Part shown: positions 18,414 to 63,753 of the stretch, piece after piece
Position numbering within the stretch: position 1 is the stretch's first letter
Layout: every line of letters begins with the position of its first letter
From: Microbacterium sp. Marseille-Q6648
GTDB lineage: Bacteria; Actinomycetota; Actinomycetes; Actinomycetales; Microbacteriaceae
NCBI RefSeq assembly: GCF_943181415.1
Contig: NZ_CALPBZ010000006.1
Coordinates: 1-64,000 of the forward strand
DNA length: 64,000 bases
Reading direction: 5' to 3'
Position numbers and translations under genes: made by a program
The notes under the pieces: model-generated
The model's input: the letters and a program-made list of their open reading frames with translations, nothing else
Told to the model about the DNA's origin: nothing
The model's database searches: none

Positions 18414-19579
18414 GAGGCGCTCCCCTCGTCGAAGGATGCCTCGTACGAGGCGAGCCACGCCCGCTGCTCGTCGACGCGCGGGTGCGGCTCGGAGTAGACG
18501 TTCTCGAAGATCACGTCGCGGTCGAGTCCGCCGAGTTCGGTCGTGCGCACGCGCACATCGTCCGCCACGGCGTCGGCATCGGCATCCACCCCTGCGAAGA
18601 ACGCCTCACTCGCGCCGCGCCCCCGCAGGTACGCCGCCATGCGCGCGATCGGGTCGCGGCCGGCCCAGCTCTCCTCTTCGTCCGAGGTGCGGTACTTCGT
18701 CGGGTCGTCACTGGTCGTGTGCGCCCCCATGCGGTAGGTCATGGCCTCGATAGCGCGGGGGCCGGCACCACCGCGGGCCTCGTCGAGCGCCACGCGGGTG
18801 ACGGCGTAGCTGGCGAGCACGTCGTTTCCGTCGAGGGGGATGCTGGGCATGCCGTAGCCGTCGCCGCGCCGGTACAGCGGCGAGCGCGACTGCGTGGCGA
18901 CGGGCACCGAGATCGCCCACTGGTTGTTCTGCAGGAAGAACACCTCGGGGGTGTTGTAGCTGGCGGCGAAGACCATCGCCTCGTGGACGTCTCCCTGGCT
19001 GGACGCCCCGTCGCCGTAGTACACGATGACGGCTTCGTCCCGCTCGGGATCGCCGGTGCCGCAGCGTCCGTCGAACACCAGCCCCATGCCGAATCCGGTC
19101 GCATGGAGGGTCTGCGCGCCGAGGACCAGCGTGTACGGGTGCGTGTTGCCGTTCTTCGGGTCGAACGGGTTCCAGCCGCCGTGGGTGAGGCCGCGCATGA
19201 GCCGGATGATGTCGATGCCGTCGACACCCCGGATGCGCGTCACGACGTGCTCGCGATACGAGGGGAAGAGGTGGTCCTGCGTGCGCGCCGCCCGGGCGGA
19301 GCCGACCTGCGCGGCCTCCTGCCCGAGGCTCGGCGGCCAGAGGGCCAGCTGCCCCTGCCGCTGGAGGTTCGTGGCCTGGCGGTCGAAGGCGCGGATGATC
19401 ACCATGTCGCGGTACAGGCCCTCGAGCTCGACGTCGGCGAGCCCGTCGATGACCGACAGGTAGGGCTCGGCGGCGGCGGACGGGGCGAACGAGCCGTCCG
19501 CGGCGAGCACGCGCACGAGGCGCGGGTCGTCCGAGGGTGCCGCTGCGTCGGCGGGGGCCGAGATCTCAGGCGGGGTCAC
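18410..19579 (-). CDS. 2-oxoacid dehydrogenase E1 component, alpha subunit (branched-chain type)
   Basis: The 389-residue protein contains the thiamine-diphosphate motif [14 protein letters not shown]...NNQWAIS (about residues 190-230), [16 protein letters not shown], and the phosphorylation-loop-like [16 protein letters not shown]. The YRxGxHTTSDDPxxYR pattern is characteristic of branched-chain 2-oxoacid E1 alpha. It starts at a GTG directly after the aminotransferase gene; TAGCGT lies six bases before that GTG, so it may have its own leaderless promoter as well as readthrough. Confidence 0.92.
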
Positions 19580-48630: not shown

Positions 48631-48640
48631 TTTGCGCAAA
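48631..48640. promoter_or_regulatory. Palindromic operator TTTGCGCAAA in the divergent thuA/lacI gap
   Basis: A perfect 10-bp palindrome with central CG, typical of LacI-family operators, in the 91-bp gap between the ThuA-GH51 operon and the lacI gene at 48650. It overlaps AAAACT, which lies six bases before the lacI ATG, so the regulator could repress itself and its divergent neighbours. Confidence 0.6.
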
Positions 48641-48649
48641 ACTGGCTTC

Positions 48650-49669
48650 ATGACGGAAGGTTCACGGGTGACCCTCAGCGCCGTGGCCGAACGCGCGGGG
48701 GTGAGTGTCGCCACGGCCTCGCGGGCGCTCCGCGCGCGCGGCGAGATGGCCGCCGATACGCGAGCGCGCGTGCTCCGCGCTGCGAGCGAGCTCGGCTACC
48801 CGGGCACCACCGCGGGGCGCGGCCGGCCGCGCCGGGGCACCGCGCTGATGTTCGACCTCGTGCTCGGTCACTTCCACGACCCGTACACCGAGGAGATCAC
48901 CGCCGGCGCCCGCACCACCGCTTCGTCGCTGGGCTACGACCTCGTGCTGACAGCCGAGCGGGACGACCCGGCCGACGACTGGCCCGAACGCATCCGCTCC
49001 CGCGGGTCCGCCGGCGTCGTCACCGGTCTGATCACCCCCACGAGCGCACAGATCCTCGCTATGCACCGCGCCGGGATCCCCCTGGTGCTGATGGAACCGC
49101 CGTCCGAGGCGTCCAGGCCTCTGCCGAGCATACGCACGACCGACCGGGCCGGAGGGTCGGCGGCCGCGGAGCACCTCATCTCGCGGGGAGCCCGTCGCTT
49201 CGTCGTCATCGGCGGCGCGCCCTCGTACCGCTACGGCCGAGCGCGCGTCGACGGGTTCACCGCCACCCTGGGCGAGCTTGCGCCCGGGGCGCCCTGCGTG
49301 CGGACGAGCGCGGACTGGAGCGCGTGGGACGCTCGCCGCGCGTGCGCGCGGGCGCTGTCGGAGCTCGGCGGCGAAGGCCCGGTGGGGATCTTCGCCTGCT
49401 CGGACGAGATGGCCGCAGGAGCTTACCGGGCGGTCGCCGACAGCAGACTCGGCATCCCCCGCGATGTGCTCGTCGTCGGCTTCGACGATGTTCGGGGCGC
49501 GCGGTGGCTGCATCCGTCGCTCACGACCATCCGCCAGCCGATCCGAGAGATGGCGGCGACCGCGGTGCGGCTCCTCGCCCGTTCCGCAGCGGGGGAAGAG
49601 GTGGCCCCCGACGCGATCGTCATGCCGACCGAACTCGTCGAGCGGGGCTCGACCCGAACGCTCGCCTAG
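48650..49669 (+). CDS. LacI-family transcriptional regulator (GH51/ThuA neighbour)
   Basis: The 339-residue protein has helix-turn-helix TLSAVAERAGVSVATASRAL (about 8-27) and an effector-binding domain from TALMFDLVLGHFHDPYTEEI onwards, ending with PTELVERGSTRTLA. A TTG at 48632 would add six residues, but ATG 48650 is six bases after a possible -10 and has the normal LacI spacing to the HTH. It probably controls the divergent arabinofuranosidase genes. Seven bases separate its stop from that of GH127. Confidence 0.9.
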   Translation: MTEGSRVTLSAVAERAGVSVATASRALRARGEMAADTRARVLRAASELGYPGTTAGRGRPRRGTALMFDLVLGHFHDPYTEEITAGARTTASSLGYDLVLTAERDDPADDWPERIRSRGSAGVVTGLITPTSAQILAMHRAGIPLVLMEPPSEASRPLPSIRTTDRAGGSAAAEHLISRGARRFVVIGGAPSYRYGRARVDGFTATLGELAPGAPCVRTSADWSAWDARRACARALSELGGEGPVGIFACSDEMAAGAYRAVADSRLGIPRDVLVVGFDDVRGARWLHPSLTTIRQPIREMAATAVRLLARSAAGEEVAPDAIVMPTELVERGSTRTLA

Positions 49670-49676
49670 CTCGCCG

Positions 49677-51563
49677 TCACGAGGCCGGACGCACCGGGAA
49701 GTACACCGAGTAGCGCTCGTCGACCACCTCGTGCAACGGCACGAACCGGGTCGCCTGCGCCTGCCCCACGCTGCGGTAGCGCGTGAGCCACTGCGTCCAT
49801 TGCCGCTCGTCGTCCGGCGCGAGCATCGTGGTCGCATCGTCCGGATCGCCCACGAGCGCCACCTCGCGGTCGATCAGGCCCGCCAGCACGGTCGGGCCCT
49901 CCACGAAGGCGACCGTGGACGGCTCGTCGGGGATCGGAACCGTCCGCACGGAGAACGGGAATTCCACGGCGATCTCGGTCTCGCCCCCGCGATGATCGAC
50001 CTCGAGCCACCGGTCGGCGAGGTGCCACGACGCGTCGGTGTGCACGCGGGGCCCGGCCGAAGTCCACGCCGGAACGCGCAGGCGCACCCGGTTCGCGCTT
50101 CCGGTGACGGTGACGCGCACCCGGAGCGCTCGCGGGCGATGCCGGTCGCCGCCGGGTCCGGCATTCGCGTCGGGGCCGACGTAGCGCGCGTCGTCGAGGA
50201 GGACGATGTCGATGCGCGCGTCCTGATCGGGCAGCTCGGCCCGGACCGGTGCGTACTGCGCCACCGTCAGGGCGGTGCCGGGTCCGGCGTAGACGGCCCA
50301 CTGAGCATGACGGGTGTGCGCCTGCACGAGAGTGCCGTGGCAGCACCAGAAGTCCTCGGTCGGGCTCCCCCACTCCTTGCGCGCGCCGCCTTCGAGCGGG
50401 AGGAAGTACGCCACCATGCCGGTGCGCGGGTTCTGCTGCGCGAGCAGACCGTTGTGCAGGTTGGTCTCGATGTAGTCCAGGGCCGCGACGTCTCCGGTCC
50501 ACCGGAAGATCACGTCCGCCAGCCGGATCATGTTGTAGACCGAGCAGTGCTCCTGGGTCTTCGGCCCCCGGCGGGCGGCGAAGGCGAAGGGCGGCGTCCA
50601 GATCTCGCCCGAGGTCTGGCCGCCGGTGCAGAACGTGCCTCGCTCGACGACCGCCGACCGCCAGTAGGCGGTCACGACCCCGCGCCAGCGCTCATCACCG
50701 GTGACCTCGTACGCGCGAGCGGCTCCGAGCACCTCGGGGATCGTGGTGTTGGCGTGCATGTTGGTGAGCACGTCCTCGCCCTCCCGCAGCGGGTCGAAGA
50801 GGGCTCGGTGCCAGTAGCGATCGAGCAGATCGCGGTACCGCTCGTCGCCCGTGGCGTCGAGCAGATCGGCCCAGACCTCCAGCATCCCGCCGGTCTCGAC
50901 GTCCAGGATCTGCTGGAACCTGTCGGTGTCGAATCCGCGCGCCCACCGCGCGATCGCCCCCGCCGCGCGGTGCGCGATGCCGAGCGCGCGCTCGTCGCCG
51001 AGGTCTCGCCACACGTCGAGGAGTCCCATGAAGGTCTTGTGGATCGCATACTGGGGCGCCCAGGTCTCACGACCCTCACCCAGTCGCCGCAGGAAGGACT
51101 CCGGGGTGGCGAAGACCCACTCGCCGCCGTTCTCGTCCTGGCACCGCTCCAGCCCCGCCACCACGTTCTCGAGGCGACCGCGCAGCAGCGGATCCCCCGT
51201 GGTGGCGACCTCGCGCGCCGCCGCCGACATCCAGTGCCCGAGGAAGTGCCCGCGCAGCAGCGAGCCGGGGGTCTCCCAGCCCCAGTGGCGATCAAGGCCA
51301 CGGTCGGCGACGTCCGAGCGCGACGGGTGCAGGTGCCAGGCCTGATCGGTGACCCCGGCCTCGAGAAGGTGGTTCTGAAGGAGATTCCGCTCGGTGAGCG
51401 AAGCGACGTACTCGCGGTTGAGGCGTCGACGGCTCTCGAATGTTCCCGCCGCGAGCCGGACGCGGCCGGGCGCGAGGGCGGTGACGGCCGGAGCGGGCGT
51501 GCCGGGGCCATAAGCGGCAGAGCGGGGCGTGCCAGAGCGGGGGGCGGCAGGGTTCGCAGTCAC
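49677..51563 (-). CDS. Beta-L-arabinofuranosidase-like GH127 (DUF1680)
   Basis: The 628-residue protein has an (alpha/alpha)6 barrel: LNREYVASLTERNLLQNHL, GHFLGHWMSAAA, YAIHKTFMGLLDVW, VLTNMHANTTIPEVLG, then GGQTSGEIW (Glu), KTQEHCSVYNMIRL (Cys) and TEDFWCCHGT (Cys-Cys). The Glu and three Cys match the zinc-thiolate active site of HypBA1, where Cys is the nucleophile. C-terminal beta domains follow. There is no signal peptide. GAGGAGAACC precedes GTG 51563. Removes beta-L-arabinofuranose from imported oligosaccharides or glycopeptides. Confidence 0.9.
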   Translation of the reverse strand: MTANPAAPRSGTPRSAAYGPGTPAPAVTALAPGRVRLAAGTFESRRRLNREYVASLTERNLLQNHLLEAGVTDQAWHLHPSRSDVADRGLDRHWGWETPGSLLRGHFLGHWMSAAAREVATTGDPLLRGRLENVVAGLERCQDENGGEWVFATPESFLRRLGEGRETWAPQYAIHKTFMGLLDVWRDLGDERALGIAHRAAGAIARWARGFDTDRFQQILDVETGGMLEVWADLLDATGDERYRDLLDRYWHRALFDPLREGEDVLTNMHANTTIPEVLGAARAYEVTGDERWRGVVTAYWRSAVVERGTFCTGGQTSGEIWTPPFAFAARRGPKTQEHCSVYNMIRLADVIFRWTGDVAALDYIETNLHNGLLAQQNPRTGMVAYFLPLEGGARKEWGSPTEDFWCCHGTLVQAHTRHAQWAVYAGPGTALTVAQYAPVRAELPDQDARIDIVLLDDARYVGPDANAGPGGDRHRPRALRVRVTVTGSANRVRLRVPAWTSAGPRVHTDASWHLADRWLEVDHRGGETEIAVEFPFSVRTVPIPDEPSTVAFVEGPTVLAGLIDREVALVGDPDDATTMLAPDDERQWTQWLTRYRSVGQAQATRFVPLHEVVDERYSVYFPVRPAS

Positions 51564-51576
51564 GGTTCTCCTCGGT

Positions 51577-51588
51577 GAGATCGATCTC
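51577..51588. promoter_or_regulatory. Operator GAGATCGATCTC between GH127 and GH36
   Basis: A perfect 12-bp palindrome with central CG in the 66-bp divergent gap. The same inner ten bases occur upstream of lacI at 62711-62720, and a one-base variant upstream of the second sugar importer (62544-62555). Overlapping -10-like hexamers TGTACT (plus) and TACAGT (minus) lie at 51591-51598. Confidence 0.65.
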
Positions 51589-51629
51589 TGACTGTACTCC
51601 TCCGCCCTTGCACCACCACAATGGGGCGT

Positions 51630-53813
51630 ATGAGTGAACTCCGCGTGGTCCATCTGTCGTCCGCCGACGTGTCGCTGGTGGTGACCCAGCGCGGCGACGA
51701 GCTGCCGGCGATCGTGCACTGGGGCGCGCGCCTGGACGTGTCGGACGACGACCTGCGCACGCTCGCTGCCATCGGCGATCGGCCCGGATTGTCGGCGGAT
51801 TCGGACGTGCCGTACCGACCGAGCGTGCTCCCGGAGCACTCGCGCGGCTGGTTCGGACGCCCCGGTCTGAGCGTGCACCGCCGTGGTCGCGCGTGGTCTC
51901 CGCGGTTCCGTGCCATGCCGATGGGCGTGGCGGGGACGCCGGCTCCCGCCGGCGCGACCTCGCACGGAGCCGGGAGCATCACCGTCGAAGCGAGCGACGA
52001 AGGGGCCGGCATCGGCATCGTCCTGGAGATCGATCTCACCGCCGCGGGCCTGTTGCGCACACGTGTCGGGGTGCGCAATCTCGGCATGGGAGCGGACGAG
52101 GTGGACGTCGTCGAAGCGCTGCCTGCGCTGCCGGTGCCCCTGCGCGCGAACGAGATCCTCGATTTCAGCGGCAGGTGGGCCCACGAGCGGATCCCGCAGC
52201 GTCACCCCGTCGTCCGCGGCACGCATGCGCGCGTCTCGCGTCGCGGCCGCACCGGCCTCGATGCCACCACGGTCCTCGCCCTCGGCGTGCCGGGCTTCGC
52301 CGCCGACGCGGGTGAGACGTGGCTCTTCCACGTGGGATTCAGCGGTGACCACGAGCACGCCGTCGAGCGCACCGACGGCTTCCTGGCCTTCCGCGGCGGC
52401 GAACTGCTCCTGCCCGGGGAGGTGCGGCTGAAGGCGGGGGGCGAGTATGTGTCACCGTGGATCTTCGGCGCGTACGGCGACGGGTGGGACGCGGCATCCG
52501 CGCGCTTCCACGCCTACCTGCGGGATCGCAACCGCGCCGGCACGCGTCCGCGACCGGTCACGCTGAACGTGTGGGAGGCGGTCTACTTCGATCAGGATGC
52601 CGCAACCTTGACCGCGCTGGCCGAACAGGGCGCCGCCCTCGGCGTCGAACGATTCGTGCTGGACGACGGCTGGTTCCGCGGGCGACGGGATGACCGCGCC
52701 GGCCTCGGCGATTGGGAGCCGGATCCGCACGCGTGGCCGAACGGGCTCCGTCCTCTCGCCGATCGGGTGCGCTCGCTGGGGATGGAGTTCGGACTGTGGG
52801 TCGAGCCCGAGATGATCAACGAGGACTCCGACCTCGCCCGAGCCCACCCCGACTGGATCCTCCGAGCCCGCGACACCCTGCCCGCGCGCTACCGCTTCCA
52901 GCAGGTCCTCGACCTCACCAACCCCGACGCGTACGCGCACATCCTCGGCCGCCTGGACGCCCTCGTCACCGAGATCGGCGTGAGCTACCTGAAGTGGGAC
53001 CACAACCGCGATCTCGTCGACGCCGGGCATCCGGCCACCGGCGCCCCGGCCGTCCACGAGCAGACCCTGGCGGTGTATCGGCTCCTCGACGACCTGCGGC
53101 ACCGGCATCCGGAGCTCGAGATAGAGAGCTGCGCGTCGGGCGGAGGGCGGGTCGACCTCGGCATCCTCGAGCGCACCGACCGCATCCACCCCTCGGACAG
53201 CCACGACCCCGTCGACCGCTTCCACATCCTCGGCTGGACGGGCCTGCTCGTGCCGCCCGAGATGATGGGGTCGCACGTCGCCTCGGCGGTCTCGAGCACC
53301 ACCGGGCGCACCTCGACGCTCGCCTACCGCTGCGCCGTCGCCCTCCTCGGGCATTTCGGTATCGAATGGGACATCCGCGAACTGACCGACGACGAACGGG
53401 AGATGCTCTCGACCTGGATCGCGCGCTGGCGTCGTCACCGCGACCTCATCTCCACCGGACGAGCCGTGTCGGGCTCCAGCGACCTCGCGGGCCCGTCGCT
53501 GCGGGGTGTCGTCTCCCCCACCGGCGACGAGGCGATCTACACCGTGGTCACGCCGGCCACGAGCGCCGACGCGATGGCGCACCTGCGTCTTCCCGGGCTG
53601 GACCCGAACCGCCGCTACCGCCTGAGGGCGAGTGCGCCCGAATCGCTGGGTCCGCCCTGGCAGGTGCCGGCCTGGCTCGACGCGGCGACGCTGGACGGCG
53701 ACGACGCCTCGGCGCCGGTGCTCAGCGGCGCCGCGCTGGGCGTGGTGGGGCTCGACTTCCCGGTCTTCCATCCCGAGCGCGCGGCCATCCTCCACCTGGA
53801 GGCCATCGCATGA
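51630..53813 (+). CDS. Alpha-galactosidase, GH36
   Basis: The 727-residue protein has an N-terminal beta-sandwich (1-280), a catalytic barrel (about 310-640) and a C-terminal domain. Signatures are PVTLNVWEAVYFDQDAAT, FVLDDGWFRGRRDD, FGLWVEPEMINEDSDL, GVSYLKWDHNRDL (nucleophile Asp), ESCASGGGRVDLG and the acid/base Asp near HPSDSHDPVDR, where SDN-D is usual. No signal peptide. It cleaves alpha-1,6-galactosyl groups such as those of raffinose or galactomannan oligosaccharides. ATG 51630 or 51621 are both possible. It has a four-base overlap with GH27. Confidence 0.93.
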   Translation: MSELRVVHLSSADVSLVVTQRGDELPAIVHWGARLDVSDDDLRTLAAIGDRPGLSADSDVPYRPSVLPEHSRGWFGRPGLSVHRRGRAWSPRFRAMPMGVAGTPAPAGATSHGAGSITVEASDEGAGIGIVLEIDLTAAGLLRTRVGVRNLGMGADEVDVVEALPALPVPLRANEILDFSGRWAHERIPQRHPVVRGTHARVSRRGRTGLDATTVLALGVPGFAADAGETWLFHVGFSGDHEHAVERTDGFLAFRGGELLLPGEVRLKAGGEYVSPWIFGAYGDGWDAASARFHAYLRDRNRAGTRPRPVTLNVWEAVYFDQDAATLTALAEQGAALGVERFVLDDGWFRGRRDDRAGLGDWEPDPHAWPNGLRPLADRVRSLGMEFGLWVEPEMINEDSDLARAHPDWILRARDTLPARYRFQQVLDLTNPDAYAHILGRLDALVTEIGVSYLKWDHNRDLVDAGHPATGAPAVHEQTLAVYRLLDDLRHRHPELEIESCASGGGRVDLGILERTDRIHPSDSHDPVDRFHILGWTGLLVPPEMMGSHVASAVSSTTGRTSTLAYRCAVALLGHFGIEWDIRELTDDEREMLSTWIARWRRHRDLISTGRAVSGSSDLAGPSLRGVVSPTGDEAIYTVVTPATSADAMAHLRLPGLDPNRRYRLRASAPESLGPPWQVPAWLDAATLDGDDASAPVLSGAALGVVGLDFPVFHPERAAILHLEAIA
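52026..52037. promoter_or_regulatory. Second GAGATCGATCTC palindrome, inside the GH36 gene
   Basis: The same 12-bp palindrome as at 51577 recurs 449 bp downstream, in frame as Glu-Ile-Asp-Leu. The Asp codon is GAT although GAC is the norm here. The position is similar to auxiliary operators of LacI-regulated genes. It could also be chance. Confidence 0.35.
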
Positions 53814-55078
53814 ACCCCACCCGCCGTGCCGCAGCGATCACGCCCCCGATGGGCTGGAACAGCTGGGACTGCTTCGGGTCCTCGGTCACCGAGGCCGAGG
53901 TGGTCGCGAACGCCGAGTTCCTCGCGGCCCACCTTCGAGACGCCGGCTGGGACACCGTCGTGGTCGACATCCAGTGGTACGAGCCCGACCCGGGCACCCA
54001 CGACTACAACACCGTGTCGAACCCCGTTCTCGACGACTGGGGACGACCGCGGCCGGCCGTCGGACGCTTCCCGTCGGCGTCGGACGGCACCTTCCGCGCG
54101 CTCGCCGACCGCGTGCACACGCTCGGCCTGAAGTTCGGCGTGCACCTCATGCGGGGCGTGCCCCGCGCCGCCGCGGAGCGGGCGCTCCCCATCCTCGGAG
54201 CGTCCGGGGCGACGTGCGCGAGCATCGCCGACCCGGCCAACGTGTGCCCGTGGAATCCCGACAACCTGGGTGTGGACATGTCGCAGCCGGGTGCCCAGGA
54301 GTACTACGACTCGGTCATGTCGATGCTCGCCGAGTGGGGCGTGGACTACGTCAAGCTCGACGACGTGCTGTACCCGCCGGTGCAGACCGCCGAGATCCGC
54401 GCCCTCTCCGACGCCATCGACCGCACCAACCGGCCCATGGCGCTGAGCCTCTCACCGGGCAAAGAGCTGTCGCTCGCGCACCTCGACACCCTTCGGGACA
54501 CCGCGCAGGCGTGGCGTATCTCGGACGACCTGTGGGACGACTGGAGCTCGGTGCGCGAGCAGTTCCAGCGCGCTGCGCGGTGGGCGCCGCACCAGCGTCC
54601 GGGCGCCTGGGCGGACGCCGACATGCTGCCCTTCGGGCGCATCGGCATCCGCGGCCATGTCGGCGCCGACCGGCTCAGCCGGCTGAGCGTCGAGGAGCAG
54701 CGGACGGTGATGACGCTGTGGTGCCTGCTGCGGTCGCCGCTGATGTTCGGCGGCCACCTGCCCGACACCCCCGCCGACACGCTCGCCCTGCTCACGCGCC
54801 GCGAGGTGCTGGCGCTGCAGCGGGCCACCGACGCCCGTGAGCTCGTGAGAGACGGCGACCTGGTGGTGTGGTCGGCACAGCTCGAGGGGCGCACGGCCGC
54901 GGCGGTGTTCCACCTCGGTGACGCGGCGCGCGAGCGACGGGTGCACATCGACGATGTGGGTCGCGGCGACGCCCGCCGGGCGGTCGACGGCTGGTCGGGC
55001 GACTCCGTGCCCCTGACGGACGGCTGGATGACGCTCGAGGTGCCCGCCCACGGCGTGCGGCTGGTGTGGCTCGACTGA
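53810..55078 (+). CDS. GH27 glycoside hydrolase (alpha-galactosidase or beta-L-arabinopyranosidase)
   Basis: The 422-residue protein opens with ITPPMGWNSWDCFGSSVTEA, typical of GH27, then DTVVVDIQWYEPDPG, GVHLMRGVPR, the nucleophile segment WGVDYVKLDDVLYPP and the acid/base RISDDLWDDW. A C-terminal beta domain ends GVRLVWLD. GH27 enzymes cleave alpha-galactose, and some beta-L-arabinopyranose, which has the same stereochemistry; with the GH51 and GH127 neighbours the latter is an option. ATGA overlap couples it to GH36. No signal peptide. Confidence 0.87.
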   Translation: MNPTRRAAAITPPMGWNSWDCFGSSVTEAEVVANAEFLAAHLRDAGWDTVVVDIQWYEPDPGTHDYNTVSNPVLDDWGRPRPAVGRFPSASDGTFRALADRVHTLGLKFGVHLMRGVPRAAAERALPILGASGATCASIADPANVCPWNPDNLGVDMSQPGAQEYYDSVMSMLAEWGVDYVKLDDVLYPPVQTAEIRALSDAIDRTNRPMALSLSPGKELSLAHLDTLRDTAQAWRISDDLWDDWSSVREQFQRAARWAPHQRPGAWADADMLPFGRIGIRGHVGADRLSRLSVEEQRTVMTLWCLLRSPLMFGGHLPDTPADTLALLTRREVLALQRATDARELVRDGDLVVWSAQLEGRTAAAVFHLGDAARERRVHIDDVGRGDARRAVDGWSGDSVPLTDGWMTLEVPAHGVRLVWLD

Positions 55079-55085
55079 CCGGACG

Positions 55086-56168
55086 TCAGCGCGGCGGCGC
55101 GCCGTCCCAGCGCGCGATGGCGTCGGCGACGGCGTGGTCGCCCGCTGCGCGCGCCGCCTCTGCGGCGTGATGGGATGCCGCGGCGAAGACGTCATCGAGG
55201 CGCACCGTCTCACCGGTCCGAGCCGAGGCCAGTGCCGCTTCGACCATCGCGAGGCTCCAGATGTTGGCCCGCACCTCGCCGGAGGGAGTCGGGCCGCCGT
55301 CCAGGGCGGTGACGAACTCGGCCAGCGCGGCATCGAGCCCTTCCTCCGCGTCACCGACACGCACGGTCCGCGGGTCGCCCTCGCGGCCCTGCGCGCTCAC
55401 CCCGACTTCGCCGTCCCACGTCACCGATCCGGCGGCGGCGCTCGCGCGCCACGATCCGTTCCACGAGGTCGTCAGGCCGTCGGCGCACCAGCTGCCCGAA
55501 TAGGAGAATCGCGCGCCGTCGCCGAAACGGAACACCGCTTCGGCCGCCGCGCCCCCGCGGTACCAGCTCCACGGCGGCGAGAACTCGTCGCAGTACACCG
55601 ACACGGGGTCGGCGCCGAGCACGTACCGCGCCTGATCGAACGTGTGGATGGCCATGTCGATGAGGAGGGGCGACTCCATCTCGTCCCGGAATCCGCCGAA
55701 ACGCGGGTTCTGAAAGAACAGTGCCGTCAGCTGGGCAGCGCCGCCGGCGGCGGCCACTTCCTCACGGAAGGCGCGGATGCCGGCGGAGTACCGCCGCGAC
55801 TGGCTGGTGGCGAGCAGCACACCCGTCACCTCGCTGACGGCGGCGAGCGCGAGCGCGTCCGACACCGTCGGCGTGACGGGCTTCTCGCTGAGCACCGGGA
55901 CGCCCTGGCGCAGGGCGGCTTCGCTGACCGCGCGGTGCGCCTCGGGGATGGTGACGTTCAGCAGCATCCCCGGGCGTCCCACCGCCGCGAAGGCCTCGTC
56001 GACCGACGCGACGCACGGGATGTCCCATCCGCGCTGATCGCCGGCCGCACGTGCGGCCTCGACCGACACATCCACGATCGCGCTCACCCGGAGGTCGTCC
56101 CTGCGGGCGACGGTGTCGAGCCACGCGCGGCCCATTCCGCCAGCGCCGACGACGACGACATCCCTCAC
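55086..56168 (-). CDS. Gfo/Idh/MocA-family sugar oxidoreductase
   Basis: The 360-residue protein has the NAD(P)-binding [20 protein letters not shown], then [15 protein letters not shown] with the Glu-Lys-Pro motif of the family, and the C-terminal substrate domain ([19 protein letters not shown], with the conserved His-Asp). It oxidises or reduces a sugar or its derivative. GTG 56168 overlaps the ThuA stop. It is the last gene of a six-gene operon starting at the importer binding protein (62482). It is convergent with GH27, seven bases apart. Confidence 0.9.
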
Positions 56169-56944
56169 GCGAGCACCTCGCCGTCCCACTCGCGGGGCGT
56201 GTCGAACTCGCCGGCGCGATGCATCGCGAGGCGAGGGACGACCCGCGGGCGTTCCTGCCTCGCCCACATCGCGGCGTTGGCGAGCACCCGCTGGATCTCG
56301 GGCTGGTGGTAGACGGGGTAGTCCTGGTCGCCGGGTGAGAAGTAGAAGATGCGACCGTGACCGCGCGAGAACGTCATGCCCGAGCGGAACACCTCGCCGC
56401 CGGTGAAGCTGGACACGAACACCAGCTCGTCCGGGGCGGGCACATCGAAGAACTCGCCGTACATCTCCTGCGAGGGGATCACGATCGGATGCGGGACGCC
56501 GACGGCGATGGGATGCGTCGGCGCGACCGTCCACACCAGCTCGCGATCGTCGGCCTGCCGCCAGCGCAGCGAGCACGTCGTGCCCATCAGGCGGATGAAG
56601 ATCTTCGAGAAGTGACCCGAGTGCAGCACGACGAGCCCCATCCCGGCGAGCACGTGGCGATGGACGCGCTCGACGACAGCGTCGTCGACGGCGCCGTGGC
56701 GCAGATGGCCCCACCAGAACAGCACGTCGGTCGCGGCGAGCCGGTCCTCGGTCAAGCCGTGCTCGGGATCGTCGAGCGTGGCGGTCTCGACGGACGCATC
56801 CTCGGGCAGAAGCCGGCGGAGTCCCGCCGCGATCGTGCCGTGCATGCTGTCGGGATACAGCCGTTGCGTCGTCTCGTCATGCTTCTCGTGGTGGTTCTCG
56901 CCCCACACGAGCACGCGGATTCCCGGGGTCTGTGCTGATGTCAC
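56165..56944 (-). CDS. ThuA-domain protein (trehalose utilisation family)
   Basis: The 259-residue protein has [53 protein letters not shown] and [20 protein letters not shown], the hallmarks of ThuA close to rhizobial trehalose-utilisation proteins. ThuA with a Gfo/Idh partner (ThuB-like) converts imported disaccharides to keto forms in those bacteria; the adjacent oxidoreductase fits. ATGA overlap with GH3 upstream and GTGA overlap downstream. Confidence 0.9.
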
Positions 56945-59259
56945 TGGGTCGGCGTCCCTTCCGTCTCGTCTTCATCCCACGCGGTCCGGCCGGCTCGGGC
57001 CAGGAGGACGCGCCGGTCTCCGGACAGTCGCACCCGCGCCTCGACGGGACGGTCCGCGGCCGACGGCCCGGCCGAGAGCACGACGACACCGGGGTCGACG
57101 GCCAGCCGCCCATCGGCGCCGGTGGCGGCCAGCCTCGCCGCCTCGAGCGTGAAGCGCACGGTGCGCCGTTGCCCCGCGGGCACGTGGATGCGGGCGAAGC
57201 CGACCAGCTGCACCTCGGGACGCACCACGGACGACGAGGGGAAGGATGCGTAGAGCTGGACGACCTCGATGCAGTCGGCGCCGCTGTTGCCGACCGTCAC
57301 CGTCACCTCGGCGGCCCCGGTCGTGGGGACGATGAGCGGCGTGGAGAGATCCTTGTAGGCGATCCGCCCGCGCGTGAGGCCGAAGCCGAACGGATACAGC
57401 GGGGTGGGGTCGGCCACGGTGATGCCGGCATTGTGCCGGCCCAGGGGCGGCTGCAGGTAGGTGCCGGCGGCAGCGGGCGTCCGCGGGATCTGCACCGGCA
57501 GTCTTCCGCTCGGGGCCACGCGCCCCGAGAGGATCCCGGCGACGGCGGCGGCTCCCTCGGCTCCGGGGAAGAACGCCTGCACGATCATGGCGGCAGCGCC
57601 ATAGGCGCCCAGGGCGTACGGCCGCCCCGACACGACGACGAGCGCCGTGGGGGTGCCGGTGGCGAGGACCGCCCGCACGAGTTCGTCCTGGCGACCGGGC
57701 AGTCGCAGATCGTCGGCGTCGCAGCCCTCGCCCGAGGTGCCGGCGCCGAAGAGGCCCGCGACGTCGCCGACGACGAGGATCACCGCGTCGCTGTCCCGCG
57801 CCACATCCACGGCCTCCGCGATCCGGGCGTTCTCTTCGCCCGCGATCGCGCATCCGGGCTCGGCGCGGACGACGGAGGCCTCGAACTCGGCGCGCACCGC
57901 CTGGTCGATCGTCGGGATCGCGATGCCGGGGTCGTGTCCGGGGTACTTGGTGAGGACGTGGTTCGGGAAGGCGTAGCAGCCCAGCAGACTGCGATACTCG
58001 GCGGCCGCCGGCCCGATGAGGCCGATCCGCGCCCCCGGTCCCAGCGGCATCGTGCCGTCGTCCTTGAGCAGGACGATGGATTCCTCGGCCAGCCGAGAAG
58101 ACAGCGCACGATTGCGCTCGCCGTCCAGGCACACCTGCTCCGCACCGTCCGGGACGATCGCCCCGCCGTCGAGCAGTCCCGCCTCGATCTTGTGGCGCAG
58201 GTGCCGGACAGCGGCACGATCGATGTCGCTCTCGTCCACCAGCCCCTCGCGCACCAGACGCGGCAAGGCGGCGTATGCCACCGTCGAGGGCAGTTCGACG
58301 TCCACGCCCGCCCGCAGCGCGAGCGCACCGGCGGCGGCGGCGTCCACGGCCACGCGGTGCATGGACACCAGGAACGGCACCGCCCAGTAGTCGGCGACGA
58401 CCGTGCCGTCGAAGCCCCACTCGGTGCGCAGCACACCGTCCAGCAGTTCCCGGTTGGCGGTGCTCGGGATGCCGTCGACGTCGGTGTACGAGGTCATGAC
58501 GCTGCGGGCCCCGCCCTGCCGGAGGGCTGTCTCGAACGGCGGCAGCACCGTGTCGGCGAATTCGCGCGGGCCCATGCTGACCGGAGCATGGTTGCGGGCA
58601 CCGCGCGACGCGGCGTACCCGGCGAAGTGCTTGAGGGTGGCGATGACGCCTGCGCTCTCGAGCCCGGCGACGTAGGCCGCCCCGAGCTGGCCCACGACAT
58701 ACGGATCCTCGCCGAGGGTCTCTTCGACCCGGCCCCAGCGGTAGTCCCGGACGACGTCGAGGACCGGGGCGAGTCCCTGGTGCACGCCGATCGCCCGCAT
58801 GTCCTCGCCGATGGCGCGGGCCATCTCGCGCACGAGGTCTTCGTCGAAGCTGGCGGCCCACGCCAGTGGGGTGGGGAAGGCGGTGGCGCCGAACGCGGCG
58901 AGACCGGTGAGGCATTCTTCGTGCACCAGCGCCGGGATGCCGAGGCGCTGGTGGGCGGTCACCTTCCGCTGCAGCTCGCGAAGCCGGGCGACGCCTTCGG
59001 CCACGGTCACCGGCGCCGTGCCGAACACCCGGGTCAGCTGTCCCAGGCCGTGGGCGAACGGGTCGCCGGCCTCCGCGTCCGTGTCGCCCTCGAGCTTCGG
59101 GGCGAAGGCGTCGGCGGAATCGGTGAGCCACACCGACCCCAGCTGAGCGACTTTCTCCTCCAAGGTCAGTTCGTCGACCAGTGCCTGGGCGCGCTCGCGC
59201 GCGCTCAGCGTCGTATCGCGCCACCGACCCTCGTCGACGACGCCCGCGTTCGCGCTCAT
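56941..59259 (-). CDS. Glycoside hydrolase family 3 (beta-glucosidase/beta-xylosidase type)
   Basis: The 772-residue protein has an N-terminal barrel ([76 protein letters not shown]), with nucleophile Asp in [11 protein letters not shown], the alpha/beta sandwich ([16 protein letters not shown]), and a C-terminal fibronectin-III-like domain ([23 protein letters not shown]). The WGRVEET and HFAGY patterns resemble GH3 xylosidases. No signal peptide. ATGA overlap with the permease upstream, so it acts on what that importer brings in. Confidence 0.93.
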
Positions 59260-60167
59260 CAGCCCTTGAACGCTCCGTCCATGATTCCCGCGACCATGCG
59301 ACGGCCGACGAAGAAGAAGACGATCAGCAACGGGAGGGTGGCCATGAAGGACCCGCCCATCGTCAGCGCCAGGTCGATTGTGCGGTTGGCCTGCAGCTGC
59401 TTCAGCGCGATCTGCACGGTGAACAGCTCGGGCGACTTCAGCACGATGAACGGCCACATGAAGTCGTTCCACACCGCCGTGAAGGTGATGAGCCCGAGGA
59501 CGAACGCCGCCGGACGCACGACGGGGAAGCCGATGCGCCAGAAGATCTGCCAACTGTTGGCACCGTCGATGCGGGCTGCCTGCATGAGCTCGTCGTTCAG
59601 CGTCGTGGCCATGTGCTGACGCATCCAGAAGATGCCGAAGGCGCTCGCGAGTCCCGGGACGATGATCGCCTGGAGGGTGTCGACCCAGTCGAGCCACGAG
59701 ATGATCAGGTACTGCGGGATCACACTGAGCTGCGCGGGCACTGTCATGGTGAGCAGCACGATGAGGAACAGGGCGTTGCGACCCGGGAACTGCAGCTTGG
59801 CGAAGGCGAAGCCGGCCAGCGCGCACAGCAGCGAGGCGATGACCGCGATCGACAGCGACACGATGGTGCTGTTGAGCAGCGACTGGAAGAACGGCACGGT
59901 GTCGAAGACCTTGCCCGCGATGTCGAAGAAGTTGAACCCGGGATAGAGGCGCGGGGGGATCGAGGTGACCGCCGTCGCGCCCACCGAGGCGATGACGAAC
60001 ATGTAGTACAGCGGGAAGACGCTGATGAGCACCGCGATGATGAGCATCAGGTAGACCGGCCACCCGACGCGGCCCGCTCGGGCACCGCGCCCGGGACGAC
60101 GCTTCTGCGGACGCGTGAGCGCCTCCTGGCCCGCCTGCGGGACCGCCTGATCGATGACGTCGGACAT
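59259..60167 (-). CDS. Sugar ABC transporter permease (MalG-like)
   Basis: The 302-residue protein has a Gln/Arg-rich cytoplasmic start, six membrane helices and the EAA loop MQAARIDGANSWQIFWRIGF (about 188-207). It ends VAGIMDGAFKG. It has ATGA overlaps at both ends, with the partner permease and GH3. Confidence 0.93.
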   Translation of the reverse strand: MSDVIDQAVPQAGQEALTRPQKRRPGRGARAGRVGWPVYLMLIIAVLISVFPLYYMFVIASVGATAVTSIPPRLYPGFNFFDIAGKVFDTVPFFQSLLNSTIVSLSIAVIASLLCALAGFAFAKLQFPGRNALFLIVLLTMTVPAQLSVIPQYLIISWLDWVDTLQAIIVPGLASAFGIFWMRQHMATTLNDELMQAARIDGANSWQIFWRIGFPVVRPAAFVLGLITFTAVWNDFMWPFIVLKSPELFTVQIALKQLQANRTIDLALTMGGSFMATLPLLIVFFFVGRRMVAGIMDGAFKG

Positions 60168-61138
60168 CAGCGCGCCTTCCGGGTGCGAGTGGTCAGGTAG
60201 AAGTTGATGAGCGAGACGACGACGACGATGAGGAACAGCGCCACGCCGATCGCCGAGCCGTATCCGAACTCGAACTGCCCGAAGCCCTGCTCGTAGAGGA
60301 ACAGTGCGAGGGTCTGGCACTGTCGTCCGCCACCGCACGTGAGGCCGGACTCGGGCGCCACCAGCAGCGGCTCGGTGAAGATCTGCAGCCCGCCGATGGT
60401 CGACATGATGACGGTGAAGATGATGATCGGGCGCAGGGACGGGATCGTGAGGTGGATGAACTGCTGCCACCCGGATGCGCCGTCGACCGAGGCCGCCTCG
60501 TACATCTCCCGGGGCAGCGCCTGCAGCCCCGCCAGGTAGAGGAGCGTGTTGTAGCCGAACCAGCGCCACATCACCATCGACGAGATGACGATCCACGACC
60601 CGACCTGGGAGGACAGGAAGTTGACGTCGGGGATGCCGAAGATGTTGAGCACCCAGTTGATGAGGCCGAAGTTGCGGTCGAAGATCTGCGCGAAGACGAG
60701 GGCGGTGGCCGCCACCGACGTGATGTAGGGCACCAGCAGCGCCATGCGGAAGAAGTTCGCCCACTTCAGAGTGGCGTGGTTGAGCAGGTGGGCGAGCCCC
60801 AGCGCCAGCAGAAGCTGCGGGATCGTGGAGATGAGGAAGATGCCGAACGTGTTCACGAATGCGTTCCAGAACCGGGGATCCTGGAACAGCCGCTCGAAGT
60901 TGGCGAGTCCCACGAAGGTCTGCTCACCGATGGGGTTCCAGTCGAACAGCGCCACGTAGAAGGTGAACACGAGCGGGAACAGCCCGAAGATCGCGAAGAT
61001 GACGAAGAACGGCGCGATGTAGACGTAGGGCGCGATGCGTTCGCCGAAGCTCTGTCGGATGCGCGACGGCGGTCGGTCGCGTCGGCGCGTCTTGCGCACG
61101 GAGATCAGGGTGGCGGTCGCGGGAGCGGTGACTGTCAT
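60167..61138 (-). CDS. Sugar ABC transporter permease (MalF-like)
   Basis: The 323-residue protein has six helices and the EAA motif YEAASVDGASGWQQFIHLTI (about 213-232). A short loop, ESGLTCGGGRQCQTLAL, carries two cysteines and faces outside near the last helices. ATG 61138 follows a strong hairpin that separates it from the binding-protein gene, which probably lowers permease relative to binding protein. Confidence 0.93.
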   Translation of the reverse strand: MTVTAPATATLISVRKTRRRDRPPSRIRQSFGERIAPYVYIAPFFVIFAIFGLFPLVFTFYVALFDWNPIGEQTFVGLANFERLFQDPRFWNAFVNTFGIFLISTIPQLLLALGLAHLLNHATLKWANFFRMALLVPYITSVAATALVFAQIFDRNFGLINWVLNIFGIPDVNFLSSQVGSWIVISSMVMWRWFGYNTLLYLAGLQALPREMYEAASVDGASGWQQFIHLTIPSLRPIIIFTVIMSTIGGLQIFTEPLLVAPESGLTCGGGRQCQTLALFLYEQGFGQFEFGYGSAIGVALFLIVVVVSLINFYLTTRTRKAR

Positions 61139-61158
61139 GTTCCTCTGCCTCGGTCGGG

Positions 61159-61188
61159 ACGGTGGCCCGGGCGCGCCCGGGCCACCGT
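61159..61188 (-). terminator. Intercistronic hairpin between binding-protein and permease genes
   Basis: Arms 61159-61171 and 61176-61188 (ACGGTGGCCCGGG and complement) pair perfectly over 13 bp around CGCG. There is no T tract, so it is more likely an attenuating or 3'-end-protecting stem than a full terminator, as is usual between sugar-binding-protein and permease genes. Confidence 0.75.
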
Positions 61189-61201
61189 CTGTCGAAGGGG
61201 G

Positions 61202-62482
61202 TCAGCCCCCGATGGCTGCTTTCGCGCTGTCGAGGCCTGTCTGCCAGGCGTCCTCGGGCGCGACGTTGCCCGCCTGCATGTCGACGAGCGCGTTCAGCAG
61301 CGCACCGCCGATCGCACTGGTGTCGGGACCGTTGTAGAAGGACTGGAAGTTCATCACCGAGTCGCTCATGATCTGCCCGATCGGCGAGTCGCCGTAGAAC
61401 GGGTCGGTGTAGCTCTTGACCTCGTCGCTCTCGAGCGCCGCCTCGGCCGCGGGGAAGGTGCCCGTCGTGGCGAAGTGCTCGGTCTGGCCCTCGGGCGACA
61501 GCATCGTCTCGATGTACTGCCACGCCGCCTCTTTGTTCTCGGCGCGGGCGGGGATGGCGATGACGCTGCCGCCCCAGTTGCCGCCGACACCCGGGATCGA
61601 GGCGATGCGCCACTTGCCCTCGGTGTCGGGGGCGTCGTTCTTGAGACCCGAGAGGATCCACGACGGCGCCGTGGTGACGGCGAACGCGCCGTTGGCCTTG
61701 CCGGGCGCCCAGCCCGACGACCATGCCGGGATGTCGGCGCTCAGGCCGGCCTCGTAGGTGCGCACCGCGACGTCGAAGGCTTCCTCGACCTCGGGGTTGG
61801 TGTCGTAGATGAGCTCACCCTCGGGGGTGTAGTACTTCTGGCTCACCTGGTTGACCGTCGAGAAGAAGATCGACGTCTCGACGTTGTCGACGAAGGGCTC
61901 GCCGGTCGCTTCGGTGTACTGCTCGCCCATGGCGATGAAGTCGTCCCACGTGGACCACATCTCGGCCACCTCGGCCGGGTCGGTGGGCAGGCCCGCCTCT
62001 TCGAACAGGTCGGCACGGTAGGCGAAGGCCAGGCCGCCGACATCGGTGGGGATGCCGATGATCGATCCGTCCTCGGCGGTGGCCCCGTCGATGGCCCAAT
62101 CCAGGTAGCCGTCGCCGATGTCGTCGCCGCCGAGCGTGCGGAGGTCGACGAAGTTGCCGGCGTTCTCGACGAACTTGGGCAGGTCGTCGTTCTGGATCAT
62201 GACGAGGTCGGGCACCCGCCCCCCGGCCAGGGCGGCCGTCAGGGCGGTGGCCGTCTCGGTGGTGCTGCCGACCTCGGAGAGCTTCACCTTCGCGTCGGGG
62301 TTCTTCTCCAGGTACCGGTCGACCGAGTCCTTCTGGCCGATTCCGGTGAACGACCAGAACTCGAACTCGGCGTTCGGGTCTCCGCCTTCGGAGCCGGAGC
62401 CGGAGCCTCCCGAGCATCCGGAGATCAGCAGCGCGAGTGCGCCGACAGCGGCGATGGGCAGGGCCAGTTTGCGACGATTCAC
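61202..62482 (-). CDS. Sugar ABC transporter substrate-binding lipoprotein
   Basis: The 426-residue protein has a lipoprotein signal ALALLISGCSGG (Cys at about 23), a Gly/Ser linker, then a cluster-B binding fold with VKLSEVGSTTETATALTAAL, PDLVMIQNDDLPKFVENAG and IIGIPTDVGGLAFAYRADLF. GAGGAG lies six bases before GTG 62482. First gene of the operon SBP-permease-permease-GH3-ThuA-oxidoreductase. The sugar is unknown; a xyloside or other beta-glycoside is suggested by GH3. Confidence 0.92.
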   Translation of the reverse strand: MNRRKLALPIAAVGALALLISGCSGGSGSGSEGGDPNAEFEFWSFTGIGQKDSVDRYLEKNPDAKVKLSEVGSTTETATALTAALAGGRVPDLVMIQNDDLPKFVENAGNFVDLRTLGGDDIGDGYLDWAIDGATAEDGSIIGIPTDVGGLAFAYRADLFEEAGLPTDPAEVAEMWSTWDDFIAMGEQYTEATGEPFVDNVETSIFFSTVNQVSQKYYTPEGELIYDTNPEVEEAFDVAVRTYEAGLSADIPAWSSGWAPGKANGAFAVTTAPSWILSGLKNDAPDTEGKWRIASIPGVGGNWGGSVIAIPARAENKEAAWQYIETMLSPEGQTEHFATTGTFPAAEAALESDEVKSYTDPFYGDSPIGQIMSDSVMNFQSFYNGPDTSAIGGALLNALVDMQAGNVAPEDAWQTGLDSAKAAIGG

Positions 62483-62539
62483 AACTGCTCCTCTTCTTCG
62501 GGGACATGTGAGTGCGGGAGATGACGGGATCTCGCCGAT

Positions 62540-62598
62540 GTGAGAGATCGTTCTCTCACCCGCGAGCCAGAGTAGCCATGCAACGTTGAAGAGCACAA
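62540..62598 (-). promoter_or_regulatory. Promoter and operator of the second sugar-importer operon
   Basis: On the minus strand TTGTGC (62593-62598) and TACTCT (62569-62574) lie 18 bp apart. Just downstream, at about +3 to +22, is the palindrome GTGAGAGATCGTTCTCTCAC (62540-62559), eight perfect pairs around TCGT. A repressor there would block elongation or initiation. Its inner part differs by one base from the operator at 51577. Confidence 0.65.
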
Positions 62599-62608
62599 GC
62601 CCCGTGTC

Positions 62609-62622
62609 GGAAAACGCTTGTC
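62609..62622. promoter_or_regulatory. Second LacI-family-like site upstream of the importer promoter
   Basis: GGAAAACGCTTGTC matches the general LacI/CRE pattern TGNAANCGNTTNCA at eight of its ten fixed positions, and lies just upstream of the -35 in the divergent gap with lacI. It could be an upstream operator or a site for another LacI regulator. Confidence 0.35.
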
Positions 62623-62710
62623 GCCGACGTCGCCGAGCCGCTTAGGGTAGCGAGAACACGACGAGGCCGACGACGATCGCGGGGACCGTGCAATGATCGA
62701 GGTGGTCGTG

Positions 62711-62720
62711 AGATCGATCT
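62711..62720. promoter_or_regulatory. Operator core AGATCGATCT upstream of lacI
   Basis: A perfect 10-bp palindrome identical to the inner bases of the 51577 operator, 31 bp before the ATG of the lacI gene at 62752. It suggests autoregulation by that LacI protein. Confidence 0.55.
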
Positions 62721-62751
62721 ACGGCCGATGTGCATTCTTCGGAGGGGAGCC

Positions 62752-63753
62752 ATGGCCCGACCCACCATCGTCGACGTCGCCCAGGCTGCGGGCGTCTCAC
62801 GCGCCACGGCCGCGCGCGTGCTCGCCGGGGCCACGAACGTCGACCCCGCGATGACGGAGGCCGTGGCGCGCGAGGCCCGACGGCTGGGGTACGAGACCAA
62901 CTTCGCCGCGCGCGTGCTGCGTGGCGGAAAAGCCGGGTCGATCGGACTGGTCATCGCCTTCGACGAGCTCGGCAGCCTCAGCGGCACCTTCTTCACCGCC
63001 GTGCTCAAGGGTGCCGCGAAGGGACTGTCCGCCGGCGAGGTGCAGCCGGTTCTGCTTCCCGCCGACCACGAGGACCTCGACCGCATCCCCCGGTTCCTGC
63101 GCTCGGGAGCCCTCGACGGCGTGATCGTCATCCTGCAGCACGAGATCACCCATCTCGTCGAGAGCCTCGCCGACTCCCCCATCCCGGTGGCCTGGGTGGG
63201 CAGGCCGCACGCCGACATCGGCCCCGACCCGATCGTGATCGACTCCGACAACTATGGGGGTGGTGTCCAGGCCGCCCGCGCGCTCATCGAGCGGGGGCGG
63301 CGTTCGATCGGGATCATCACCGGTCCGCTCGATCTCGAGCAGGCCCGCGAGCGAACCCGCGGATGGACCGACGAGCTGGCCCGCCACGGCATCGAGCCCG
63401 GCCCTATCGTCCACGGCGACTTCACCCTCGACAGCGGCACCGCGGCGATGGCGCGCCTGCTGCAACGAGCCCCCGACCTCGACGGGGTCTTCGCGTCGTC
63501 CGACCTCATGGCCGCCGGGGCGATCCGCGTCCTCCAGGCCGCCGGGCGCCGCGTGCCCGCGGACGTGTCGGTCGTCGGCTTCGACGACGTGCTCATCGCC
63601 AGCACATCCGACCCACCGCTCACCACCGTCCGGCAGCCGCTGGAAGAGATGGGCCGCGCGGCGGCCGACACGCTTCTGGCCACGATCCGCGGACTGCCTG
63701 CCGAGAAGGAGCAGCTGCTGCCCACGTCGCTCGTCCGTCGCGAGTCGCTCTGA
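62752..63753 (+). CDS. LacI-family transcriptional regulator of the second importer operon
   Basis: The 333-residue protein has helix-turn-helix TIVDVAQAAGVSRATAARVL (residues 5-24), hinge NFAARVLRGGKAG and effector domain from SIGLVIAFDELGSLSG on. GGAGGGG precedes ATG 62752. It is divergent from the importer operon and flanked by GAGATCG-TCTC sites, so it is the best candidate for the protein that recognises them, here and at 51577. Two bases separate its stop from the next gene. Confidence 0.9.
   Translation: MARPTIVDVAQAAGVSRATAARVLAGATNVDPAMTEAVAREARRLGYETNFAARVLRGGKAGSIGLVIAFDELGSLSGTFFTAVLKGAAKGLSAGEVQPVLLPADHEDLDRIPRFLRSGALDGVIVILQHEITHLVESLADSPIPVAWVGRPHADIGPDPIVIDSDNYGGGVQAARALIERGRRSIGIITGPLDLEQARERTRGWTDELARHGIEPGPIVHGDFTLDSGTAAMARLLQRAPDLDGVFASSDLMAAGAIRVLQAAGRRVPADVSVVGFDDVLIASTSDPPLTTVRQPLEEMGRAAADTLLATIRGLPAEKEQLLPTSLVRRESL

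Follow-up and report, generated by a model that had tools for sequence, protein, structure and literature searches.

The window analyzed here, a 64,000-nucleotide stretch of Microbacterium sp. Marseille-Q6648 (contig NZ_CALPBZ010000006.1, positions 1 to 64,000), holds a cluster of glycosidase and sugar-import genes in which the 12-mer palindrome GAGATCGWTCTC recurs as the predicted operator of a LacI-family repressor, LacI1. The lacI1 gene (62752..63753, plus strand) encodes a protein of 333 amino acids, in which the helix-turn-helix domain PF00356 (37.9 bits) and the periplasmic-binding-protein-like sensor domain PF13377 (125.3 bits) both score above their cut-offs. On the minus strand, a single tight run of genes begins with a sugar-type solute-binding protein (61202..62482; PF13416/PF01547; GTG start at 62482), whose N-terminal LISGC looks like a lipobox, and continues with the ATP-binding cassette (ABC) permease 1 (60167..61138; PF00528), ABC permease 2 (59259..60164; PF00528; start approximate), a GH3 gene (56941..59223; start approximate), a ThuA-domain gene (56165..56944; PF06283) and, as its last member, a Gfo/Idh/MocA oxidoreductase (55086..56168; Pfam). 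The cluster also contains a GH127-type beta-L-arabinofuranosidase gene (49677..51563, minus strand; PF07944, 273 bits), with its GTG start ending at 51563, which is separated by a divergent gap from a GH36 alpha-galactosidase-type gene (51621..53813, plus strand; PF02065, 392 bits; ATG at 51621 or 51630); the latter overlaps a GH27 gene (53810..55078, plus strand) by 4 bp.

An earlier sequence-only reading had marked three palindromic sites in this region, and all three were found where it placed them. Operator A (GAGATCGATCTC, 51577..51588) is an exact copy in the GH127/GH36 gap; 13 nt separate it from the start of GH127, and 32 or 41 nt from that of GH36, depending on which start codon is used. 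Operator B (GTGAGAGATCGTTCTCTCAC, 62540..62559, core 62544-62555), before the importer operon, is palindromic save for one mismatched pair. Operator C (GAGATCGATCTA, 62710..62721, with the inner part AGATCGATCT at 62711-62720) differs from the core by one mismatch, and ends 30 nt before the lacI1 start codon. A fourth and again exact copy, which that reading had missed, is operator D (GAGATCGATCTC, 52026..52037), located inside GH36, 449 bp from A, where it is read in frame as GAG ATC GAT CTC, encoding EIDL. The genome-wide motif search that the sequence-only reading had proposed returned three exact places in the 3,486,506 bases of the genome (51577, 52026 and 62544), all of them inside one 11 kb of this cluster, while the reversed pattern, used as control for motif counts, gave none. 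Moreover, when up to one mismatch is allowed, the A/T-flanked form WGAGAWCGWTCTCW occurs at four places in the genome, three in this cluster, as compared to one for its reversed control. The proposed link between two gene sets is supported by the conserved operators described below, though the sets are neighbours in one cluster rather than separate and scattered.

The sequence-only reading had also suggested comparing the same gaps in related genomes. LacI1 orthologs of 73-98% identity were found in nine other genomes of a genus set of 149, with the next best matches at 43%, and LacI1 is 98% identical to that of M. ureisolvens; in a family set, 14 of 398 genomes, our own counted, have an ortholog at E 1e-115 or better. 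Overall, the comparison covered 39 loci that encode LacI1 or an ortholog of it (at least 68% identity). They comprise our own as well as four repeat records, and 35 are left once the repeats are removed; the set spans several genera, and the loci named in the collection scan belong to Microbacterium, Agromyces, Clavibacter, Rathayibacter, Cryobacterium, Arthrobacter, Planctomonas and others. In 39/39 of these loci (35/35 without repeats), the 400 bp upstream of lacI contain a site with no more than one mismatch, and in 37/39 they contain a second one with no more than two, those of L122 and L130 being poorly palindromic. No site with at most one mismatch was detected upstream in 50 loci of LacI paralogs, 5 of which carry GAGAGCGCTCTC, a two-mismatch relative of the operator. 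When our own upstream region was shuffled, 4 of 400 versions reached one mismatch or fewer and 33 of 400 reached two or fewer. In ten aligned Microbacterium lacI1 spacers, B and C are conserved (C with at most two mismatches in all ten), while most of the spacer has diverged. The B-C spacing is 78-81 bp in 12 loci of Arthrobacter, Clavibacter, Rathayibacter and Cryobacterium, and 103-167 bp in Microbacterium and Agromyces. The LacI1 sites are even palindromes with a central CG, conserved alongside the regulator, and the recognition segment SRATAAR is common to all 33 ortholog proteins compared (L006, L012 and L013 were left out). As a separate observation, LacI paralogs of 40-49% identity have GAGAGCGCTCTC upstream in L143 (7321 and 7423), L141 (6422), L186, L187 and L190, and the recognition segment in L141 and L143 is SRATASR instead of SRATAAR; GAGAGCGCTCTC together with SRATASR is possibly a natural specificity switch.

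Operator D, within a coding sequence, was the unexpected finding. GH36 orthologs (at least 62%) occur in 7/10 genomes with LacI1 and in 0/139 of the other genus genomes. Sixteen loci were taken for reading D in the orthologs, with GH36 frames derived from tblastn alignments; three of them (L114, L117 and L118) are without the 5' end, and L065 (G106), only partly aligned, was read by a separate alignment and is within the 13 orthologs finally read. D was exact, with the codons GAG ATC GAT CTC, in 12 of those 13. Codon statistics were computed on eleven site-bearing orthologs from Microbacterium, Agromyces and Arthrobacter, a set that omits L069/G148, which has no exact site, as well as fragments, a choice favouring D. 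Among 685 in-frame 12-nt windows, D ranks first and is the only one identical in all eleven. GAT makes up 26% of the Asp codons, and out of 27 invariant Asp columns the one at D is the only one that is GAT throughout. Silent identity between our own gene and seven distant orthologs was 0.44-0.58 vs 0.41-0.49 expected for independent draws, which indicates that between clades, silent positions have almost reached saturation; close pairs are higher, among them the two Arthrobacter orthologs (0.57 vs 0.39). In addition, six CTA codons are present in the eleven orthologs, five of them directly before D.

A search for pairs of exact sites 436-466 bp apart gave hits in 18 of 366 genus genomes and in 2 of 396 order genomes (our own being in both sets), with none for the reversed control. 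All 19 distinct pair loci, a set that overlaps with the eleven orthologs above, turned out to be GH36 genes with the second site in frame, and the A-D distance across loci is 443-453 bp. As these loci were chosen for having both exact sites, only gene identity, frame, spacing and flanking codons count as evidence, and several of them are more than 90% identical to each other. Regarding the flanking codons, the base preceding D is A in 9 loci and G in 10, never C or T, and CTA accounts for 5 of 12 Leu codons before D vs 2 of 1230 Leu codons elsewhere in those stretches. These data bear on the possibility that D merely reflects a conserved E-I-D-L peptide written in common codons. GAG, ATC and CTC are indeed common in these genes, and the exact 12-mer also arises in other coding sequence of the genus; however, GAT is a minority codon and yet invariant in the eleven aligned genes, the silent positions immediately outside D vary, and in the pair loci the preceding base is restricted to A or G, with CTA in excess. 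Furthermore, in 23 GH36 paralogs (at most 52%) the site is absent and the aligned residue is never Asp, but Glu in 19 and Arg in 4. We regard coincidence as very unlikely. It is also very improbable that, instead of the GH36 promoter, D serves a promoter within GH36 (internal or antisense) or a long GH127 leader: within 15-19 codons around D, silent positions form no other stretch that is fully conserved, and the A-D pair accompanies GH36 also where GH127 is not found across the gap (G014 in L037; L122). By its sequence, D has the features of an operator within the repressed gene, apparently maintained by selection. An operator long kept inside GH36 has likely fixed the Asp residue, its minority GAT codon and, often, a preceding A-ending codon, all serving LacI1; on the same likely reading, it would be a further in-gene operator of a glycosidase, about 400 bp in, apparently independent of lacO2 and used by a repressor unable to tetramerise in the lac manner.

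From the sites, their confinement to the cluster and their conservation with LacI1, all of which are observed, we infer binding, the direction of control, the inducer and the action of D as follows. Very probably, the cluster forms a single local LacI1 regulon, with one palindrome at four places, D being auxiliary, and with a sugar as the releasing signal; the existence of one local LacI regulon as such is well supported by the genome comparisons. LacI1 would bind the palindrome at A, B, C and D. At B it would repress the importer operon (binding protein, two permeases, GH3, ThuA and oxidoreductase), at C lacI1 itself, and at A GH127 in one direction and GH36-GH27 in the other; the control that the sequence-only reading had ascribed to the LacI at 62752 over the importer, GH127 and GH36-GH27 genes is in agreement with the conserved operators. 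B has a conserved and apparently promoter-like stretch on one side and the binding-protein gene on the other, and C follows a largely conserved GTGCAATGAT stretch that looks like a promoter, so that the positions of A, B and C fit steric repression and autoregulation. Autoregulation of lacI1 through C is probable. According to PMC4052901, more than three-fourths of local LacI-family regulators are autoregulated. As to D, the auxiliary operator approximately 450 bp from A could cooperate with it via looping between two repressor dimers, or else a dimer bound at D could halt the RNA polymerase that got past A. Release of LacI1 would be brought about by an imported plant oligosaccharide or an L-arabinose-type sugar.

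Several observations weigh against this reading. Operator C is imperfect in our own genome, and the upstream operator carries one mismatch in L120 and L122. With two mismatches allowed, the window shows no enrichment of the motif (18 occurrences vs 15.8 expected, with as many in 37 of 100 shuffles), and at one mismatch the genome has 59 forward matches. Of the 149 genus genomes, 142 contain one or more exact copies, the forward counts being 0-9. Concerning D, the ortholog of G148 lacks the exact site, its aligned residue being Glu, with GAGATCGACCTC located two codons upstream; in an earlier count on six orthologs, two identical runs (16 and 15 nt) were longer than the 13 nt at D; and some orthologs of the codon set are close to each other (silent identity of 0.69 with M. 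ureisolvens, and 0.71 for L116-L119). The A-D spacings of 443-453 bp show no strict helical phase, and a conserved helical phasing, considered as a candidate, was discarded on that ground; for E. coli lac O2 the distance is about 401 bp. Finally, residues 4-331 of LacI1 align to residues 4-327 of E. coli LacI, two of the 333 residues remaining, and by comparison with the position of the tetramerisation helix in E. coli LacI, the lac-type C-terminal helix that joins two dimers is not present in LacI1. As there is no room for that helix, a lac-type tetramer loop by LacI1 is unlikely, which leaves dimer-dimer contact or a roadblock for D. Since 142 of 149 genomes carry the motif, three copies per genome are ordinary; what goes beyond chance is their confinement to 11 kb and their conservation. 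We also considered a dispersed LacI1 regulon, and rejected it: the nine other genomes with LacI1 have 18 exact places beyond the 20 kb regions, all of which were read and look like coding background, with 14 within an open reading frame (ORF) passing a simple codon filter and 12 flanked by C...G, unlike the cluster sites. One of the 18, in G052 (4306618) near a GH36 paralog, is within an ORF and has C...G flanks.

A second full LacI-family protein, LacI2 (48650..49669), is encoded beside GH127, and several relatives also have LacI2 near GH127 or GH36, which could suggest that gap site A is read by LacI2 and not by LacI1. Nevertheless, LacI2 has a palindrome of its own, TTTGCGCAAA (48631-48640), upstream of its gene and the only one in the window even when one mismatch is allowed. 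TTGCGCAA is kept upstream of LacI2 in 7/7 distinct relatives with an intact upstream region, six of them as TTTGCGCAAA; two further hits ended at the locus edge and are outside the seven counted. Moreover, every letter of the gap site agrees with the LacI1 motif, and A-D pairs occur in Arthrobacter L122 and L125, where no LacI2 of at least 45% identity was found. LacI2 is therefore a very unlikely reader of the gap site, and was set aside in that role because of its own conserved motif. LacI1 and LacI2 seem to use separate operators, and LacI2 with TTTGCGCAAA may form a small regulon of its own within the cluster. LacI2 is divergent from a minus-strand gene sitting between LacI2 and GH51.

Regarding the substrate of the LacI1-controlled genes, GH27 has its closest solved relative in a beta-L-arabinopyranosidase (E 2e-116). 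With 946 bits, GH3 stays below the cut-off of 1050 of its closest model, a xylosidase/arabinosidase (beta-xylosidase/alpha-L-arabinosidase) one. For GH127, the second and third structure matches are beta-L-arabinofuranosidases, the best one, 5opj, being under other names. All 12 solved-structure matches listed for GH36 are alpha-galactosidases, and its score against the beta-L-arabinopyranosidase model is weak (103 bits, cut-off 1100). The binding protein matched best to a family 1 binding protein without further specification and to a putative cellobiose-binding one. From these matches, our best guess, at about even chances, is an L-arabinose-containing plant glycan, either arabinogalactan or hydroxyproline-linked arabinans. 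Within the stretches fetched around each locus, the genes that hardly vary across species are those for LacI, the binding protein and the permeases, while GH3, ThuA, the oxidoreductase, GH127, GH36, GH27, GH51, GH95 and a nucleoside-hydrolase homolog are variable; in G034, GH127 comes after GH3 and points the same way, apparently as part of the importer operon. Because enzyme content varies between species, the suggestion in the sequence-only reading of one substrate that needs all of these enzymes found little support.

Comparison with known systems places LacI1 among the local regulons described by comparative genomics in the main text of PMC4052901, where most LacI-family motifs are even palindromes with a central CG; LacI1 resembles them in being local and probably autoregulated and in its motif, but differs in its intragenic D, as fewer than 1% of the sites reported there fall within coding sequence, lacZ and purB being the examples given. 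Motif discovery in that work covered -400 to +100 bp relative to gene starts, and an operator as deep in a gene as D could easily be overlooked in this way; neither 'Micrococc' nor 'Arthrobacter' occurs in its main text. The closest parallels to D are E. coli lac O2 in lacZ and the PurR site in purB, which likewise combine promoter operators with one deep inside the repressed gene (PMC4052901). Unlike E. coli lac, the present case concerns another phylum and another enzyme, an even palindrome with a central CG and a repressor without room for the tetramer helix; unlike lac O2, D is kept across genera and coincides with an Asp absent from the 23 sampled paralogs. BauR1 and BauR2, LacI-family regulators of beta-arabino-oligosaccharide genes in Bifidobacterium, are by their description in PMC5928203 similar to LacI1 as local repressors predicted over beta-L-arabinofuranosidases and an ABC importer; the passages describing them mention no intragenic operator, and the word 'intragenic' is absent from the main text of that paper. 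A literature search, outside of which most subscription journals lay, returned no report of this regulon. In it, the 12-mer GAGATCGWTCTC appeared only in three papers, unrelated by title, and no paper combined 'LacI' with 'intragenic operator', or LacI, Microbacterium, arabinofuranosidase and transcriptional regulator. What had been a guess from a single genome can now be presented as a regulon with a defined motif across several actinobacterial genera, whose substrate becomes testable. D itself would be a rare case in which both silent codons and an amino acid directly record selection for DNA binding, and it raises the question of how an auxiliary operator acts without a lac-type tetramer.

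Some additional observations were made around LacI1 loci. Directly after lacI1, from 63755 on and beyond the window, lie a nucleoside-hydrolase-family gene and a GH95 gene (L004 3756-7015), homologs of which recur near LacI1 in other genera. In Clavibacter, an exact operator precedes GH51-GH27 in L126 (3555-3566) and L134 (3588-3599), and GH51 in L124 (156-167), so that these GH51/GH27 genes seem to be under a LacI1-type regulator. Sanguibacter L139 has a perfect extended site, AGAGATCGATCTCT, at 18899-18912, approximately 8-9 kb from two LacI homologs (51-55%). Four related Microbacterium loci have CAGTGAGAGATCGATRTCCATGGG in common (L116 19042, L117 19056, L118 19049 and L119 19058), about 9 kb from lacI and just 5' of a possible start codon, which marks a candidate extra regulon gene. 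Lastly, two family genomes, G694 and G576, carry a second LacI1-like copy (L205 and L206; 66% and 65%, respectively).

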